Source: Phycisphaerales bacterium
GTDB lineage: Bacteria > Planctomycetota > Phycisphaerae > Phycisphaerales > UBA1924
Direction of reading: 5' to 3'
Length of the DNA: 64,000 nucleotides
NCBI GenBank assembly: GCA_020850415.1
Contig: JADZER010000037.1
Location: 124,001 to 188,000, forward strand
This document shows, one piece after another, positions 7,435-18,394 of this stretch. Under the pieces are notes generated by a model that was not told the origin of the DNA, made no database searches, and saw only the letters and a list, made by a program, of their open reading frames with translations. Position 1 is the first letter of the stretch, and the number at the start of each line of letters is the position of its first letter. The position numbers and the translations under genes were made by a program.

Positions 7435-8949
7435 TCAGGCGCCGGCGGCGGCGTGGTGCCCGGCCATGGCGGCCTCGATGTCGATGCCGAGCTTCTTGGC
7501 GATCCGCTTGCCGTAGTCCTCATCTGCGCGGAAGAAGTGGCAGAGCTGGCGCTTCTGGATCTCCTGCCGCGCGTCGCCCAGCGCCCCGGCGATCCGCGTC
7601 GTCAGGCGGTCGCGGTGGGCGTCGTCGAACATCCGGTAGAGGTTGCCGGCCTGGGTGAAGTCGTCGTGGTCCTGGGTCGAGTCGTAGCGGTCGACGACGG
7701 CCTGGCCGAGGTCCCAGGCGGGGTCGAGGAAGTTCTCGTCGGGCATGGGCGTGCCGGCCCTGGTGTTGGGCCAGTAGTTGGGGGCGCTGGCGTAGGTCTC
7801 GGCGGTCGCGCCCTCGCCGTCACGCATGTAGTGCATGACGGGGCAGCGGGGCTTGTTGACGGGGATCTGGTGGTGGTTGACGCCGACGCGGTACATGTGT
7901 GTGTCGGCGTAGCTCATGAGGCGGGCCTGGAGCATCTTGTCCGGGCTGCTCGAGATGCCCGGGACGAGGGCGCTGGGCTTGAAGGCGGCCTGCTCGACCT
8001 CGGCGAAGTAGTTCTCGGGGTTGCGGTTGAGCTCCATCCGGCCGACCTCGATGAGCGGGAAGTCGGCGTGTGGCCAGACCTTGGTGAGGTCGAAGGGGTT
8101 CCAGCCGGTGCGGAGGGACCACTCGTCGGCCTGCGCCTGGGTCATGATCTGGACCTTGAGGGTCCAGCAGGGGAACTCGCCCCGCTCGATGGCCCCGAAG
8201 AGGTCGCGCTGGTGGCTCTCGCGGTCCCGCCCGATCAGCTCGGCCGACTCCTCGCACGAGAGGTTCTTGATGCCCTGGTTGGTCTTGAAGTGGAACTTGC
8301 ACCAGAATCGCTCGCCGGCGGCGTTGATGAACGAGTAGGTGTGGCTGGAGTAGCCGTTCATGTTGCGGAGCGTGGCGGGGATGCCGCGGTCGGAGAAGAG
8401 GATGGTGACCTGGTGGAGCGATTCGGGGCACTGGCTCCAGAAGTCCCACTGCATGTCGTTGCAGCGGAGGTTGCTCGCGGGCTCGCGCTTCTGCGTGTGG
8501 ATGAAGTTGGCGAACTTGTACGGGTCGCGGACGAAGAAGACCGGCGTGTTGTTGCCGACCATGTCCCAGTTGCCCTCGTCGGTGTAGAACTTCACCGCGA
8601 AGCCCCGCACATCGCGCTCGGCGTCGGCGGCCCCTCGCTCGCCGGCGACGGTGGAGAGGCGTGCGAAGCACTCGGTCTTCTTGCCGACCTTGGAGAAGAT
8701 GGAGGCCTTGGTGAATCTGGTGATGTCGTGGGTGACGGTGAAGGTGCCGTAGGCGCCGGACCCCTTGGCGTGGACGACGCGTTCGGGGATGCGTTCGCGG
8801 TTGAAGCGCTGCATCTGCTCGAGGAGCTGTGCGTCCTGCATGAGGACCGGGCCGCGGGGGCCGGCGGTGAGGGCGTGCTGGCGTGCGATGGGTGCGCCCT
8901 CGCCGGTGGTGAGGACGGGGCACTTGCTCGCGGGGCCTTTGGTGGTCAT
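7435..8949 (-). CDS. katA: monofunctional haem catalase
   Basis: A 504-residue clade-3-length catalase that would convert H2O2 to water and O2 in the cytoplasm. The distal histidine is H60 in ERVVHAKGSGAYG, the distal asparagine lies in GNNTPVFFVRDP and the proximal haem-ligand tyrosine in RLMSYADTHMYRVG. The ATG at 8949 was preferred to upstream in-frame codons because MTTKGPASKCPVLTTG matches the usual catalase N-terminus. It is transcribed divergently from an OxyR-like regulator 132 bp away, which makes peroxide-dependent control very likely. Confidence 0.96.
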   Translation of the reverse strand: MTTKGPASKCPVLTTGEGAPIARQHALTAGPRGPVLMQDAQLLEQMQRFNRERIPERVVHAKGSGAYGTFTVTHDITRFTKASIFSKVGKKTECFARLSTVAGERGAADAERDVRGFAVKFYTDEGNWDMVGNNTPVFFVRDPYKFANFIHTQKREPASNLRCNDMQWDFWSQCPESLHQVTILFSDRGIPATLRNMNGYSSHTYSFINAAGERFWCKFHFKTNQGIKNLSCEESAELIGRDRESHQRDLFGAIERGEFPCWTLKVQIMTQAQADEWSLRTGWNPFDLTKVWPHADFPLIEVGRMELNRNPENYFAEVEQAAFKPSALVPGISSSPDKMLQARLMSYADTHMYRVGVNHHQIPVNKPRCPVMHYMRDGEGATAETYASAPNYWPNTRAGTPMPDENFLDPAWDLGQAVVDRYDSTQDHDDFTQAGNLYRMFDDAHRDRLTTRIAGALGDARQEIQKRQLCHFFRADEDYGKRIAKKLGIDIEAAMAGHHAAAGA

Positions 8950-9068
8950 GGGGGTGACTCCGGTGGGTGTGATCGGGGAGCGCCGGCCGGGGAGGCCGGC
9001 CCGCGGAATCAAAGGGCAGCGGGGTGCGGATATCGAGAGGAATCGGAGACTTTGTACCCATGCAAGGC

Positions 9069-9083
9069 ATAGGCTGTGGCTAT
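9069..9083 (+). promoter_or_regulatory. candidate OxyR binding half-site
   Basis: ATAG (9069-9072), seven bases, then CTAT (9080-9083): exactly one ATAG-N7-CTAT unit, the core of the classical OxyR recognition pattern. It overlaps the oxyR start codon and lies in the divergent katA/oxyR promoter region. A second unit with the classical phasing was not seen. Confidence 0.5.
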
Positions 9084-9963
9084 GGAAATCCATCAGCTCA
9101 GGTACTTCGTGGCGGCGGCGGAGGCGGGGTCGATGACCCTTGCGGCCCGCCGCTGCCATGTGGCGCAACCCTCGCTCTCACAGCAGGTTCGGAAGTTGGA
9201 GGAGGGCCTGGGGGTGGGTCTGTTCGACCGGCTGGGGCGTGGGGTGGCGCTGACGGAGGCGGGGCGGGCGCTCCTGCCGCGGGCGCGGGCGATCTTGGCG
9301 CAGGTGCACGAGGTGGAGTCGGGGGTGCGGGGTGATGTGGAGGCCGGGCGGGTGCGGTTGTCGGTGGGGGCGATCCCGACGATGGCGCCGTACCTCTTGC
9401 CGGGGCTGATCGCGGAGCTGCGGGCCGAGCACCCCGGGTGCGAGATCGTGGTGCGGGAGGACCTGACGGAGAGCTTGGTCGAGCGGCTGGTGGACAGCGA
9501 GCTGGATGTGGCGGTGATGAGCGCGCCGGTGGAGCACGAGCTGATCGAGCTGGAGGTGGTGGGGCGGGAGGGGCTGATGGTGGTGGCCGCGGCGGATCAC
9601 CCGGTTGTGGCTTCTGGGTCGATCACGCTCGCGGATCTGCGCGGGCTGCCGGCGGTGACGCTCGACGAGGTGCACTGCCTGGGGAAGCAGGTGAGCGACT
9701 TCTGCGCGGCGCGGCGCTTGGCGGGGAATGTGGTCTGCCGCATGACGCAGATCGAGACGCTGCTGGAGTTCGTGCGTCTGGGTCTGGGTGTGTCGATCGT
9801 GCCGGAGATGGTGTCGCGCCACGACGGGCACGCGGGGCGCCGGTACCTGCCGTTCCGGCGCGAGACGCCGACGCGGGAGATCGCGCTGGCGTGGAGGAGG
9901 GGGCGGGTGCGGGGGAGGCTGGCGGTGCGGTTTGGGGAGTTGTTGGCGGGGAGGGTCGGGTGA
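9082..9963 (+). CDS. oxyR: LysR-type peroxide sensor OxyR
   Basis: A 293-residue LysR-family regulator with an N-terminal HTH (residues 1-60, RYFVAAAEAGSMTLAARRCH) and a periplasmic-binding-like sensor domain. The key evidence is the segment HCLGKQVSDFC: counted from the ATG at 9082 its cysteines are C199 and C208, the same positions and spacing as the disulfide-forming pair of E. coli OxyR. A GTG at 9076 is an alternative start and would add two residues. The divergent catalase gene is its obvious target. The gene converges on the SPFH gene, with a hairpin repeat between them. Confidence 0.93.
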   Translation: MEIHQLRYFVAAAEAGSMTLAARRCHVAQPSLSQQVRKLEEGLGVGLFDRLGRGVALTEAGRALLPRARAILAQVHEVESGVRGDVEAGRVRLSVGAIPTMAPYLLPGLIAELRAEHPGCEIVVREDLTESLVERLVDSELDVAVMSAPVEHELIELEVVGREGLMVVAAADHPVVASGSITLADLRGLPAVTLDEVHCLGKQVSDFCAARRLAGNVVCRMTQIETLLEFVRLGLGVSIVPEMVSRHDGHAGRRYLPFRRETPTREIALAWRRGRVRGRLAVRFGELLAGRVG

Positions 9964-9980
9964 TCGAGCGCGGAAACCGG

Positions 9981-14403: not shown

Positions 14404-15036
14404 TCAGGGCTTCCGGGCGAGCACCTGCACCACGGGCGCGAGGCCGGAGTGGAAATCGCCCTCGGCCAGTTCGCGCTCGAGCGCGACGCCGTGCTCGATC
14501 GTCAGGCCGCCGAGCTCGAGGAGCAGCGTGTCGAGCGTGGCGTAGCGGGAGGGGTCGCTCGGCCCGCCGTTGCCCCGGGCGCACTGCTCGGGGGCGAAGG
14601 CCTCGAGGAGGAAGAGCCCGCCGGGCGCGAGCCAGTCGCGCACGCGGGCGTGGAGCGGGGCCCGGACCTGCGCGGGGAGATGGACGAACACCGAGGTGAC
14701 GACGGCGACCGAGCCTGGCGGGGCGTCGAATCGCAGCAGATCGGCGGCCTCGGTGCGGAGCGGCAGCGAGCGCTCTGCCGCGAGGCGGGCGGCCTTGCGC
14801 AGCCCCACCTCGCTCTGATCGACGGCGAGCGTGTCGAGGCCGAGGGAGGCCAGGAAGAGGGCGTTGCGGCCCTCGCCGGCGCCGAGGTCGATCGCGCGGC
14901 CCTGGCGGGGGAGGCGGGCGGCCATCTGCGCCAGAAAGTCGTTAGGCGCGTCGCCGTAGGCGAGGCCGTCGCGGGAGTAGCGCTCGTTCCAGAACTCTCG
15001 CTGCACGGGCGGAGTGTAGCCGGGGCCGCGCGGCAT
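14404..15036 (-). CDS. SAM-dependent methyltransferase (TehB-like class I fold)
   Basis: A 210-residue class I methyltransferase: SAM motif I is AIDLGAGEGRNALFLA, and the N-terminal FWNERYSRDGLAYGDAPND resembles TehB/thiopurine-type enzymes. Substrate is unknown. The ATG at 15036 is taken, but a GTG just before QREFWNERY (about 15003) would give a more usual length of the N-terminus. It follows asd by 16 bp on the same strand and so may be the last gene of the SAM-riboswitch operon, which would make a sulfur- or SAM-linked role plausible but unproven. Confidence 0.8.
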   Translation of the reverse strand: MPRGPGYTPPVQREFWNERYSRDGLAYGDAPNDFLAQMAARLPRQGRAIDLGAGEGRNALFLASLGLDTLAVDQSEVGLRKAARLAAERSLPLRTEAADLLRFDAPPGSVAVVTSVFVHLPAQVRAPLHARVRDWLAPGGLFLLEAFAPEQCARGNGGPSDPSRYATLDTLLLELGGLTIEHGVALERELAEGDFHSGLAPVVQVLARKP

Positions 15037-15052
15037 GCGGCGGTCGGGCCGG

Positions 15053-16168
15053 TCAGACCGCGGCGGTGAGCGTCTGCGCGCCCGCGGCTTGGCGGGGGCC
15101 GGGCTGGAGGACGCCCGCGTGCTCGGCGATCTGGATGGCGTTGAGCGCCGCGCCCTTGCGGAGCTGGTCGCCGCAGGCGATCAGGCACCACCGGCGGCGC
15201 CGGCCGTGCTCGTCGGGGCGTTCGCCGGGGTCCGGTCGGATGCGTCCGACGAGGACGGGGTCCCGTTCGGTGGCCTTGCGCGGCGTGGGGAAGCTGTTGG
15301 CGGCGCGGTCGTCGACGATCTCGATCCCCGCGCCCCCGGCGAGGGCCCCGCGGACGGCGGCCTCGGTGGCGGGGGTGTCCAGGGTGACGGTGATGGCCTC
15401 GGTGTGGGCACGGACGACGGGGACGCGGACGCAGGTGGGGGTGACGCGGAGGTCCGGCTGGTTCCAGATCTTCCGGGCCTCGTCGATGACCTTGCGCTCC
15501 TCGCCGTTGACGCCGGAGTCGGGGTCGACCGCCGAGTCGTGGCTGAAGATGTTGAAGGCGCAGGGCTCGGCGAAGACGCGGGGCTTGGGCTCGCCGTTCG
15601 GGGAGCCGTTGCGGGCGGTCTCGGGGTGGAGGGCGTCGCGGGTCTGGTCGTGCAGCTCGTCGATGGCGGCGAGCCCCGCGCCGGAGACGGCCTGGTAGGT
15701 GGCGACATCGATGGCCCGAACGCCGAAGGCGCGGCGGAGGGGCTCGAGCGCGGTGAGCAGGATGATGGTGGTGCAGTTGGGGTTGGCGATGAGGCGGCCC
15801 CGCCGGCCGATCAGCTCGCCGTTGACCTCCGGCACCACCAGCGGCACCTCCGGGTGCAGGCGGAAGGCCGAGGAGTTGTCCACGACGAGGCAGCCGGCGT
15901 CGACGGCGCCGGGGGCGAAGTCGCGGGCGGTCTGGGCGTCGGCCGCGAAGATGGCGACGGCGCATCCGCGGAAGGCGTCGGCGGTGAGCTCGACGACGGG
16001 CAGGAGCGTGTCGCCGTAGGGGATCGCCGTGCCGGCGGACCGGGCGGAGGCCAGCGCGCGCACGCGGTGAGGAGCGAGACCGCGCGCGCTGAGGAGCGTG
16101 AGCACCTCGCGGCCGACCGCCCCGGTCGCGCCGACAACAGCGATGCAGGGGCCGGGTTCAGGCGGCAT
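15053..16168 (-). CDS. asd: aspartate-semialdehyde dehydrogenase
   Basis: A 371-residue NADPH-dependent enzyme that reduces aspartyl phosphate to aspartate semialdehyde. The Rossmann motif VVGATGAVGREVL follows the start MPPEPGPCI; the catalytic cysteine lies in ANPNCTTI, and the downstream TYQAVSGAG and VRVPVVRAH blocks are standard. The ATG at 16168 lies inside the end of the aspartokinase gene (11-bp overlap), so the two consecutive pathway enzymes are translationally linked. Frame upstream of this ATG is the antisense-like shadow of the kinase and was not included. Confidence 0.95.
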   Translation of the reverse strand: MPPEPGPCIAVVGATGAVGREVLTLLSARGLAPHRVRALASARSAGTAIPYGDTLLPVVELTADAFRGCAVAIFAADAQTARDFAPGAVDAGCLVVDNSSAFRLHPEVPLVVPEVNGELIGRRGRLIANPNCTTIILLTALEPLRRAFGVRAIDVATYQAVSGAGLAAIDELHDQTRDALHPETARNGSPNGEPKPRVFAEPCAFNIFSHDSAVDPDSGVNGEERKVIDEARKIWNQPDLRVTPTCVRVPVVRAHTEAITVTLDTPATEAAVRGALAGGAGIEIVDDRAANSFPTPRKATERDPVLVGRIRPDPGERPDEHGRRRRWCLIACGDQLRKGAALNAIQIAEHAGVLQPGPRQAAGAQTLTAAV

Positions 16169-16919
16169 GGACGGGCTCCGCCTCGCGGGCGAACTCGGGG
16201 TCGAGGTCGCCGACGCGGGTGACATGGGTCGCGCCCAGGGAGCCGACCTCGAAGGCGAGGCGGTGGTCCCGGGCCCAGCGCACGGCCTTGTGCTGGACGA
16301 TGGTGCCGTCAAGGTCCAGGGCGCCCTGCCAGGAGAGCGAGGCGAAGCGGCGGGGCTCGGGCCCGGGCTTGGCGGGGTCCCACTCGTAGAGCCCGTCGAC
16401 ATCCTTGACGAGGCGGCAGGCCGCGCCGAGCTGCTGGGCGATGAACAGGGCCGTGAGGTCCGACCCGCCCCGTCCGAGCAGCGTGGTGCGGTTGTGGTCG
16501 TCCTTGCCGACGAAACCCGGGACGACGATGGCGCGGACGCGCGTGAGCGCCTCCCGCACGGCGTGGGTGTCGAGCGAGGTGGGCGAGGAGTCGAGCGGGT
16601 CGCCGGCGGTCCGCAGGCCGACGCCCGAGGCGTCCAGCGTCTCGACGCGGACGCCGAGCGTGTCGAGCGCCAGGCCGAGCAGGGCGGTGCTGGTCAGCTC
16701 GCCGGTGGCCAGCAGCAGCGCGGTGGCGAACTCGTGCGGCTTGGGGCTGTAGGCGCGGGCCCGCTGCAGCAGCGCGTCGGTCGTGCCCTCCAGCGCCGAG
16801 ACGACGGCGATCACGCGCTGCCCGTCGCGGACGAACCGGGCGACCTCTTCCGCGGCGGCGCGGACATGCAGCTCGTCGAGCAGCACCGACCCGCCGAACT
16901 TCAGGACGATGGTGCTCAC
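16158..16919 (-). CDS. short aspartokinase without ACT domain
   Basis: A 253-residue amino-acid kinase that would phosphorylate aspartate. The N-terminal VLKFGGSVL matches the aspartokinase KFGG motif, and the TTLLGRGGSDLTA and VKDVDGLYEWDP segments are typical of the catalytic domain. Normal aspartokinases have about 400-460 residues, with two C-terminal ACT domains that bind lysine or threonine; here the protein stops after the kinase domain, so allosteric feedback through ACT is absent. It overlaps the PLP-enzyme gene by ATGA upstream and asd by 11 bp downstream. Other amino-acid kinases are conceivable, but the neighbours strongly favour aspartate. Confidence 0.88.
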   Translation of the reverse strand: MSTIVLKFGGSVLLDELHVRAAAEEVARFVRDGQRVIAVVSALEGTTDALLQRARAYSPKPHEFATALLLATGELTSTALLGLALDTLGVRVETLDASGVGLRTAGDPLDSSPTSLDTHAVREALTRVRAIVVPGFVGKDDHNRTTLLGRGGSDLTALFIAQQLGAACRLVKDVDGLYEWDPAKPGPEPRRFASLSWQGALDLDGTIVQHKAVRWARDHRLAFEVGSLGATHVTRVGDLDPEFAREAEPVHAA

Positions 16920-18151
16920 GCCGCCACCTCCTCGGTCTTGGCGGCCGCGCGGGCCTCGGGGGCCTCCCAGCCCTCGTGCGCGAGCGCGATGGCCTGCTCG
17001 AGGTCGGCGACGATGTCCGCGATATCTTCAATGCCGACCGAGACACGGATCAGCCCGTCGGTGATCCCCACCGCGAGCCGCTGCTCGACCGGCACATCGG
17101 CGTGCGTCATGGTGACCGGGTGGGTCAGGAGCGTCTCGACGCTCCCGAGGTGCTCGACGAGCGCGCAGAGCTTGGCGGAGTTGAGGACCTTGACGGCGGC
17201 GTCGGTCCCGCCGACGACCTCGAAGGACAAGATCCCGCCGTGGAGCCCGCCGAGGTGCTGGCGCTTGGCCAGCGCGTGCTGTGGGTGGTCCTCCAGGCCT
17301 GGGTAGTTGACTGCCGCGACGAACGGGTTGGCCCGCAGGGCCTTGGCGAGCGCCAGGGCGTTGGCCGAGTGCTGCTTGAGGCGGAGGGGGAGGGTCTTGA
17401 CGCCGCGGGTGGTGAGCCAGGCCTGGAACGCGGCCTGGATGCCGCCGGTGCACTTGCGGATGAAGCGGACGCGGTCGAGGAGCGCCGGGTCGCGGGAGAC
17501 GACCGAGCCGCCGACGGCGGTGGAGTGGCCCTCGATGTGCTTGGTTGTGGAGTAAACGCAGACGGTGGCGCCGATGTCGAGGGGGCGCTGGATGACGGGG
17601 GTGAGGAAGGTGTTGTCGACGGCGACATGGATCCCGGCCTCGCGTCCGATATCCGCGACGGCCTTGAGGTCGGTGAGCTTGAGGGTGGGGTTGGCCGGGC
17701 TCTCGATGAAGATGAGCTTGGTGTTGGGGCGCAGGGCCGTGCGCACATTCTCGGCGTGTGAAGAATCGACAAAGGTGGCCTGAATGCCCAGCTCGCTGAG
17801 CACCTGGCGGACCAGGCGGACGGTCCCGCCGTAGATCGCATCGCCCAGGACGACATGGTCCCCGGCCTTGAGCAGGGCGAGGAACAGGGCGGTCTCGGCG
17901 GCCAGTCCGGTGACGAAGCAGACCGCCGGGGGGGCATCCTCGAGGGCGCCCAACTGGGCTTCGAGGGCCGAGACGGTGGGGTTGGAGACGCGTGAGTACG
18001 CGTACCCCTTGGTCTGCCCGACGGCCTCGTTGACAAAGGTGGTGGACTGCACGAGCGGTGTCACGAGCGCTCCGGTGAGCGGGTCTGGGGTCAGACCGCC
18101 GTGGATGGCTGTGGTGCTCGCGCCCGCGATGGTGTAATCGGAATTACACAT
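16916..18151 (-). CDS. Cys/Met-metabolism PLP enzyme (cystathionine gamma-synthase or O-acylhomoserine sulfhydrylase type)
   Basis: A 411-residue fold-type I PLP enzyme. The PLP lysine lies in YSTTKHIEGHSTAVGG, the Tyr-containing KGYAYSRVSNPT segment binds PLP phosphate across the dimer, and IFIESPANPTLKL and VDNTFLTP are family signatures. In this context (SAM riboswitch upstream, aspartokinase and asd downstream) it should join the homoserine skeleton with cysteine or sulfide on the way to methionine. Sequence alone cannot separate gamma-synthase, sulfhydrylase and gamma-lyase. The ATG at 18151 directly follows a hairpin that carries GGAGG in its loop. Its stop overlaps the next start in ATGA. 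Confidence 0.88.
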   Translation of the reverse strand: MCNSDYTIAGASTTAIHGGLTPDPLTGALVTPLVQSTTFVNEAVGQTKGYAYSRVSNPTVSALEAQLGALEDAPPAVCFVTGLAAETALFLALLKAGDHVVLGDAIYGGTVRLVRQVLSELGIQATFVDSSHAENVRTALRPNTKLIFIESPANPTLKLTDLKAVADIGREAGIHVAVDNTFLTPVIQRPLDIGATVCVYSTTKHIEGHSTAVGGSVVSRDPALLDRVRFIRKCTGGIQAAFQAWLTTRGVKTLPLRLKQHSANALALAKALRANPFVAAVNYPGLEDHPQHALAKRQHLGGLHGGILSFEVVGGTDAAVKVLNSAKLCALVEHLGSVETLLTHPVTMTHADVPVEQRLAVGITDGLIRVSVGIEDIADIVADLEQAIALAHEGWEAPEARAAAKTEEVAA

Positions 18152-18173
18152 GCCGTGAAACCTCCTTCACGGC
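18132..18173 (-). promoter_or_regulatory. tandem hairpins at the translation start
   Basis: On the minus strand, GCCGTGAA (18173-18166) and TTCACGGC (18159-18152) form a perfect 8-bp stem whose loop is GGAGGT, so the ribosome binding site sits in the loop immediately before the ATG. The first codons form a second perfect 7-bp hairpin, GTGTAAT/ATTACAC with loop TCCG (18149-18132). This suggests translation-level control downstream of the riboswitch. Confidence 0.7.
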
Positions 18174-18202
18174 ACCAATCGCAGGCCAGCGTTGCGCGGG
18201 TC

Positions 18203-18231
18203 GGCGACGACCTTCGTCGCCTTTTTGCTGG
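18203..18231 (-). promoter_or_regulatory. expression-platform hairpin
   Basis: GGCGACGA (18221-18214) and TCGTCGCC (18210-18203) form a perfect 8-bp stem with an AGG loop, preceded by AAAAA. CCAGC at 18231-18227 can pair with GCTGG at 18190-18186 as an outer stem. It lies between the SAM aptamer and the start-codon hairpins; no T-run follows, so it is not a classical terminator. Confidence 0.5.
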
Positions 18232-18258
18232 GGTTGGCGTGTTTCCGCCATCCCGGCC

Positions 18259-18360
18259 GCATCGCTCCCCGCACAGGGGCTAGCCTCGGCACCGCGGCAA
18301 GCTTGGTAAGCATGCTCGGTTGCCGCCCGGGCGTTAGGCCAGCCCGGGACTCTTGATGCT
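18259..18360 (-). promoter_or_regulatory. SAM riboswitch aptamer (SAM-I/SAM-IV clan)
   Basis: On the minus strand the conserved parts of a SAM-I-clan aptamer appear in order: P1 strand GCATC (18359-18355), ATCAAGAG, P2 arms CCCGGGC/GCCCGGG around a TGGCCTAA loop, the joint GGCAACC, a P3 hairpin, GGTGCC, P4 as CCCC-TGTG-CGGGG, and the closing P1 strand GATGC (18263-18259). The loop GGCCT can pair with AGGCT (18286-18282), as the clan pseudoknot requires. Length (102 nt) fits. The gene downstream is a transsulfuration enzyme, the expected target. Assignment to SAM-I or SAM-IV is left open. Confidence 0.88.
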
Positions 18361-18366
18361 GGGACG

Positions 18367-18394
18367 AGGATAGCGGGTCGCCGGCAGGCGTCAA
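18367..18394 (-). promoter_or_regulatory. sigma-70-like promoter for the SAM-riboswitch operon
   Basis: TTGACG (18394-18389), a 16-bp spacer and TATCCT (18372-18367) on the minus strand. The predicted transcript start falls a few bases before the first aptamer stem, so the leader begins with the riboswitch. Confidence 0.72.

Follow-up and report, generated by a model that had tools for sequence, protein, structure and literature searches.

The window analysed here is a 64,000-nucleotide stretch of a Phycisphaerales genome (assembly GCA_020850415.1, 92.9% complete; contig JADZER010000037.1, positions 124,001 to 188,000), referred to below as G000. On its minus strand lies a gene unit that encodes an aspartokinase (AK) without ACT domains and is headed by an aptamer of the S-adenosylmethionine (SAM) riboswitch clan. 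In the order of the unit, the features are as follows.

18256..18363, minus strand: SAM-I-clan aptamer variant with P1, an uninterrupted P2, P3, P4 and a P2-loop pseudoknot (RF00162, our model R1, covariation, pseudoknot test)
18150..18175, minus strand: Shine-Dalgarno hairpin of 11 pairs, with AGGAGG (18161-18166) at the loop and its end on the start codon
16916..18151, minus strand: pyridoxal-phosphate (PLP) enzyme of Cys/Met metabolism resembling cystathionine gamma-synthase (CGS), 411 aa (PF01053, 437.5 bits)
16158..16919, minus strand: aspartokinase without ACT domains, 253 aa, GTG start (PF00696 only, 116.4 bits)
15053..16168, minus strand: aspartate-semialdehyde dehydrogenase (Asd), 371 aa (NF011456, 361 bits, cut-off 223)
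14404..15036, minus strand: class I methyltransferase, 210 aa (PF13649, 48 bits)

The AK and Asd genes overlap by 11 bp (16158-16168), as a preliminary description of this DNA had stated; the 4-bp overlap of the CGS-like and AK genes (16916-16919) reads GTGA, not ATGA as given there. We compared the unit with 80 orthologous kinase loci from as many genomes, of which 79 belong to the window's family and one, G112, to a different family in the same class; each locus was followed for about 3.5 kb beyond the kinase or up to the contig end. A CGS match lies upstream of the kinase in 76 of them, a linkage of the MetBL type. The CGS-like enzyme of the window passed no NCBIfam equivalog cut-off among the 25 matches listed. 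Because the methyltransferase, which the preliminary description had counted in, gave no tblastn match in the 80 loci, it probably lies outside the conserved unit.

Aspartokinase is a textbook allosteric enzyme, and ACT sensor domains are its usual brake. The best profile matches of the window kinase are aspartate kinases and extend to about residue 227, none passing a full-length cut-off; TIGR00657 gives 136.6 bits on the protein (cut-off 208.7) and 93.5 bits in a translated search of G000. A profile built from 29 homologues recovered eight distinct PDB sequences at E<=1e-10, all aspartokinases by name, and the top fold match of the AlphaFold model (pLDDT 94.3) is the Pseudomonas aeruginosa AK (E 2e-20, TM 0.88 on the query). 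K7, T47, E74, R150, S153 and D154, which we take to be AK signature residues, are invariant in the 29 rows. Profile, PDB sequence match and fold therefore agree with the initial assignment as an aspartokinase, with aspartate as the predicted substrate; no computational result pointed to a different one. A frameshifted or truncated gene was ruled out, since relatives encode kinases of the same length. In one locus of the window's own genus (L153, genome G246) AK and Asd match in pieces whose frames do not join, probably owing to assembly errors.

No ACT family was matched in the kinase or in any of the 29 members of its homologue set A1, which carry AA_kinase only; no search covered lone ACT proteins that might act in trans. 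PF00696 is the sole domain in 118 of the best 120 of 763 homologues, the other two (P0105, P0118) having homoserine dehydrogenase (HSD) domains as well; 119 of the 120 are 223-339 aa in length. HSD follows in the kinase's own frame in 57 of the 80 loci, separated from the kinase match by a median of 49 nt. We then placed 80 kinase domains in a tree, the sample being the best matches to an ACT-less query and not all AKs. The 36 ACT-less rows, from Planctomycetota, Acidobacteriota, Gemmatimonadota and Pseudomonadota, stand on one side of a branch (100/100) and 44 longer AKs on the other, where "longer" means at least 126 residues beyond the kinase match and is not a domain call; the tree is midpoint-rooted and has long branches, and its bootstrap did not settle. 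On this tree the ACT-less AKs are one clade spanning several phyla, often fused directly to HSD, and the absence of ACT domains first noticed in the window extends across it.

Three loci carry a larger fusion, a single frame of 939-942 aa with ACT-less AK, HSD and Asd (L175:3504-6329, plus strand; L171:1401-4217 and L167:1407-4223, minus strand). These AK-HSD-Asd fusions occur in G195, G197 and G196, all of one genus, behind the same aptamer, and by domain content would be trifunctional aspartate-to-homoserine enzymes.

The aptamer was recognized by covariance models. RF00162 (SAM-I) scores 27.0 bits at 18362-18256 of the minus strand (E=7.6e-4 over 561 bases), and is the best SAM-clan model both for the window and for locus L180. 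Its Rfam gathering score is 44.4 bits, and because the window aptamer falls below it, a whole-window scan at gathering misses the element. We examined 77 leaders (the window and 76 loci); 71 of them carry the GGCAACC and GGTGCC motifs in register and form the set for the aptamer and hairpin counts below. A model built from 32 of these, R1 (the window and 31 of the 80 loci), gives 102.4 bits on the window, itself a building row (E=3.8e-22 over 665 kb), and matches 72 of the 80 loci, including 41 of the 49 outside the building set. Of the loci lacking a match, two (L186 and L212) end short of the leader. Applied to 20 whole genomes, R1 gave 17 strong matches (at least 59.7 bits) in 16 genomes, plus four weak ones; strong matches were single in 15 of the 16, and four genomes with the kinase (G290, G291, G264, G263) had no R1 match. 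G246 holds two strong matches. Its second copy (L260; C1:2802885-2802987, 86.6 bits) lies near a Mg-chelatase-family-like gene fragment, with no methionine gene evident within 3.1 kb.

Conservation of the leaders follows the SAM-I core and the P1, P2 and P3 helices. In alignment A2, ATCAAGAG (fully from C9 to G14), GGCAACC and GGTGC are invariant or nearly so. The alignment of 32 leaders has 97.2% of its cells paired and nine pairs changed on both sides, and its covariation score is 0.165 against 0.087+-0.006 after shuffling, a value reached in none of 500 shuffles. Together these results bear out the proposal that a SAM-clan aptamer heads the unit.

The aptamer departs in some feature from each of the classes SAM-I, SAM-IV and SAM-I/IV. 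P2 has at least six contiguous pairs in 64 of the 71 aptamers, whereas SAM-I has a conserved kink-turn between P2 and P2a (PMC2258182). Pseudoknot PK-1, between the P2 loop and J3/4, averages 4.08 pairs, compared with 3.72+-0.07 when partners are swapped and 3.11+-0.09 when loops are shuffled. It occurs as GCCTC/GAGGC, GTCTC/GAGAC and GCTTC/GAAGC, reaches at least four pairs in 44 of the 71 and is absent with 4-nt loops. PK-2, between the P3 loop and the 3' tail, is unsupported in a crude test (4.20 pairs versus 4.45+-0.09 with tails swapped). SAM-IV lacks P4 and has PK-2, and SAM-I/IV has an undivided P2 and P4 and lacks PK-1 (PMC6890682); membership of either was rejected, as PK-2 is unsupported. 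The variant shares the ligand-core motifs and P1-P3 with the clan, P4 with SAM-I and SAM-I/IV, and PK-1 with SAM-I and SAM-IV. It differs from the classes described in the available parts of PMC6890682 and PMC2258182 by combining an uninterrupted, kink-turn-less P2 with PK-1, PK-2 being unsupported. Judged from these features, it is best called a SAM-clan variant with a further feature combination.

Between the aptamer and the CGS start, 58 of the 71 leaders form a hairpin of 6-11 pairs in which the Shine-Dalgarno sequence lies within or next to the loop and which terminates close to the start codon. Mononucleotide shuffles gave such a hairpin in a mean of 3.1 of 71 (maximum 8), and it was found at 19 of 132 AK or Asd starts. 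The 5' strand of the hairpin contains a GATGC-like piece complementary to the P1 5' strand GCATC in 45 of 48 leaders, a count that has no chance control and covers the 48 of the 71 in which a regular expression located the platform. Since the Shine-Dalgarno hairpin follows the aptamer, the leader likely acts as a translational OFF switch closed by SAM. At low SAM, the 5' strand of P1 could anneal to that of the hairpin, which would leave CGS, AK and Asd open to translation; SAM binding would close P1 and let the hairpin form. The ACT-less AK would thus be braked via its mRNA rather than by allosteric inhibition. Four parts of this scheme are predictions: that the leader binds SAM, that SAM lowers expression, that the kinase acts on aspartate and that amino acids do not inhibit it. 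We consider it probable that the aptamer and the Shine-Dalgarno hairpin form a translational brake on the ACT-less AK in place of allostery, and that feedback on the pathway has shifted from the enzyme to the RNA.

A side observation concerns the opposite strand of the leader. At 18203-18230, on the plus strand, a hairpin of GGCGACGA, a 3-nt loop and TCGTCGCC is followed by TTTTTG, and by eye it resembles an intrinsic terminator for antisense transcription.

We ran profile searches over the 163 genomes of the window's family (f1). G000 encodes five amino-acid kinases: the ACT-less AK, a [LysW]-aminoadipate kinase, UMP kinase, acetylglutamate kinase and carbamate kinase. Only one of the five is an AK and none passes TIGR00657, so there is no second AK in the 92.9% complete assembly. 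The preliminary description had cast the kinase as dedicated to the methionine branch; the role of a dedicated isozyme accompanying an ACT-bearing AK is not supported, because the kinase is the only AK found in G000. The [LysW]-aminoadipate kinase gene (329.6 bits, cut-off 223) adjoins an ArgC-like gene and the gene of a [LysW]-lysine hydrolase (393.8 bits, cut-off 363), and DapB was not found in G000; lysine is probably made there via LysW-aminoadipate.

Across the family, DapB occurs in 32 of 163 genomes and a full-length AK, defined as one above the TIGR00657 cut-off, in 43, G000 not among them. Both are present in 30 genomes, DapB alone in 2, full-length AK alone in 13 and neither in 118. 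A full-length AK is thus found in 30 of the 32 DapB genomes versus 13 of the 131 others (Fisher p 3e-20, not corrected for phylogeny). Among the 91 genomes with an ACT-less AK, counted at E<=1e-38 to the window kinase (which excludes G223, at 40% identity and E=1.9e-35, and weaker matches), 20 have DapB and full-length AK, 2 DapB alone, 5 full-length AK alone and 64 neither. The relatives that carry DapB therefore mostly carry a separate full-length AK. The TIGR00657 match reaches the last profile positions in 40 of the 43 genomes and stops at 290-310 of 442 in G003, G013 and G046, leaving the ACT part of those AKs uncovered; the DapB of G032 is weak (29.4 bits, cut-off 27). By the cuts used, 54 of the 163 genomes have neither a full-length nor an ACT-less AK. 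The 131 genomes without DapB also raise the question of amino-acid needs and peptidoglycan chemistry.

The step from aspartate semialdehyde towards methionine is less clear. HSD (PF00742) is present in 90 of the 163 genomes and absent from all four of the window's genus, including G000, from all three of genus g120 and from seven others; together these are 14 of the 66 genomes in which the ACT-less AK is the only one counted. An assembly gap is an unlikely cause, because HSD is missing from 4/4 and 3/3 genomes of the two genera. A divergent HSD was also rejected: the family's own HSD profile found nothing in G000 and reached at best E=0.0037 in the 12 other HSD-less genomes searched, compared with 9e-54 to 1e-126 in four controls. 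The sulfide route to homocysteine (HcyBio, PF01837), considered as a bypass, was found in none of the 163 genomes; 3 of 14 controls were positive. ThrC passes its cut-off in 69 of the 163 genomes and not in G000, whose best match (2.6e-10) we read as other PLP enzymes. The aspartate pathway has few branches in G000, with no DapB, no ThrC over cut-off and lysine probably made via LysW-aminoadipate, which is likely why the arrangement is tolerated. The methionine branch is not closed there, because no HSD was found. Of the proposal that SAM control at the RNA level replaces ACT domains in the methionine branch, RNA control is likely; the branch itself rests in G000 on the CGS-like gene and the aptamer and is unproved.

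A related unit exists outside the Planctomycetota. In two acidobacterial loci, a canonical SAM-I aptamer (76.4 bits in L054, 83.7 bits in L059) is found upstream of hydrolase-CGS, an ACT-less AK (256 and 251 aa, respectively) and Asd; in L059 the CGS is split over two frames. The other six of the eight loci scanned (L047, L053, L056, L058, L060, L091) had no SAM match at gathering, and R1 matches L047, L060 and, weakly, L056. In L054 the hydrolase-CGS gene (7764-9971), behind the canonical aptamer, encodes 735 aa in which an alpha/beta hydrolase is fused to a PLP enzyme of the CGS type; we read the hydrolase part as MetX-like from its place.

Several observations weigh against a SAM-responsive brake standing in for allostery. 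No RF00162 match reached gathering in the 163 genomes, in a scan with stricter filters that lose weak matches, and the kink-turn typical of SAM-I is missing from P2. R1 has no match in 8 of the 80 loci, six of which (L202, L218, L224, L227, L228, L229) are not cut, four of these having CGS. Thirteen genomes have a full-length AK without DapB and two the reverse. ThrC passes its cut-off in some genomes that have the ACT-less AK as their only one, such as G201 and G212; the pathway is therefore not confined to methionine in every genome, and we dropped the idea that it is so confined wherever the AK lacks ACT. Finally, with no HSD, ThrC over cut-off or HcyBio, the methionine flux of G000 is unexplained.

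Some of these points would also fit a related RNA with a different ligand, for example S-adenosylhomocysteine, or with none, the operon being controlled otherwise. The low RF00162 scores and missing kink-turn would suit this, but the near-invariance of ATCAAGAG, GGCAACC and GGTGC, the rank of RF00162 as best clan model and the methionine-metabolism gene behind the leader make it very improbable. We also find it unlikely that the SAM switch governs the CGS step while AK and Asd are merely carried along, ACT loss being older and unlinked to the RNA. ACT-less AK-HSD does occur without CGS directly before it (in Brevundimonas and Asticcacaulis loci, where a CGS match is found upstream but in the opposite orientation) and in several loci in which neither R1 nor Rfam gave a SAM match (L053, L058, L091), and a single old event would place the ACT-less AKs on one side of one branch, as seen. 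Against this reading, 72 of 80 loci keep the aptamer together with the CGS-AK unit, the corresponding acidobacterial unit has a different SAM-I aptamer at its head, and full-length AK tracks DapB. For the window lineage, AK and Asd might instead feed another aspartate-semialdehyde sink, the CGS-like enzyme working in a different direction, for example as a cystathionine gamma-lyase. The absence of HSD in G000, its genus and g120, and of ThrC over cut-off, fits; the lack of DapB in G000, the retained aptamer and CGS-like linkage, and the failure to find an alternative sink (ectoine and other sinks were not tested) speak against it, and we give this little credence. Returning to the translational brake, a wider version is conceivable, if tentative: a kink-turn-less SAM subclass and a phylum-crossing ACT-less AK clade would put aspartate-pathway feedback wholly in RNA, and the window lineage would have lost HSD, another enzyme linking aspartate semialdehyde to methionine.

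The regulatory logic has precedents. MetL of E. coli and of Vibrio reportedly has no ACT domains and is not inhibited (PMC12925634), and E. coli metL lies in a MetJ-regulated operon with metB (PMC3228920). The E. coli operon and the present unit both join a CGS gene to an AK without ACT domains, reportedly uninhibited in E. coli and predicted to be so here, under SAM-dependent control of expression that is likewise predicted for the present unit. In E. coli the regulator is the protein repressor MetJ-SAM, other AKs are present and the enzyme is an AKII-HSDII fusion; here it is an RNA aptamer, the kinase stands alone or is joined to HSD (median 49 nt), and no HSD was found in G000. In Xanthomonas campestris a SAM-I riboswitch controls metA-metB-hom (PMC7270179), likewise by translation and in a CGS-containing operon; as described in that source the operon has no AK, and the riboswitch is termed structurally typical SAM-I. 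Vibrio natriegens LysC2, similar by description only, is a monofunctional AK reported as ACT-less and insensitive to the tested amino acids, and a SAM riboswitch is unmentioned in the available part of PMC12925634. In the literature searched, mostly without subscription papers and including a Proteobacteria regulon survey (PMC4239095), we recognized no description of an RNA-controlled ACT-less AK of this kind. The arrangement was first thought undescribed; MetJ and MetL provide a known case of a SAM-repressed CGS gene coupled to an insensitive AK, and its RNA counterpart was not found in that literature. The initial observation is confirmed and its interpretation partly supported.

The aptamer lies below gathering in all 163 genomes searched, and therefore SAM control of this pathway is likely missed by current annotation. 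The missing HSD hints at an unassigned enzymatic step. Together our data describe a conserved clade of aspartokinases without the allosteric module, for which a conserved RNA would supply equivalent feedback at the level of the message. Within the family, the contrast with DapB genomes, which mostly carry a second, full-length AK, opens the question of when regulation can shift from an enzyme to an RNA to comparative and experimental tests.

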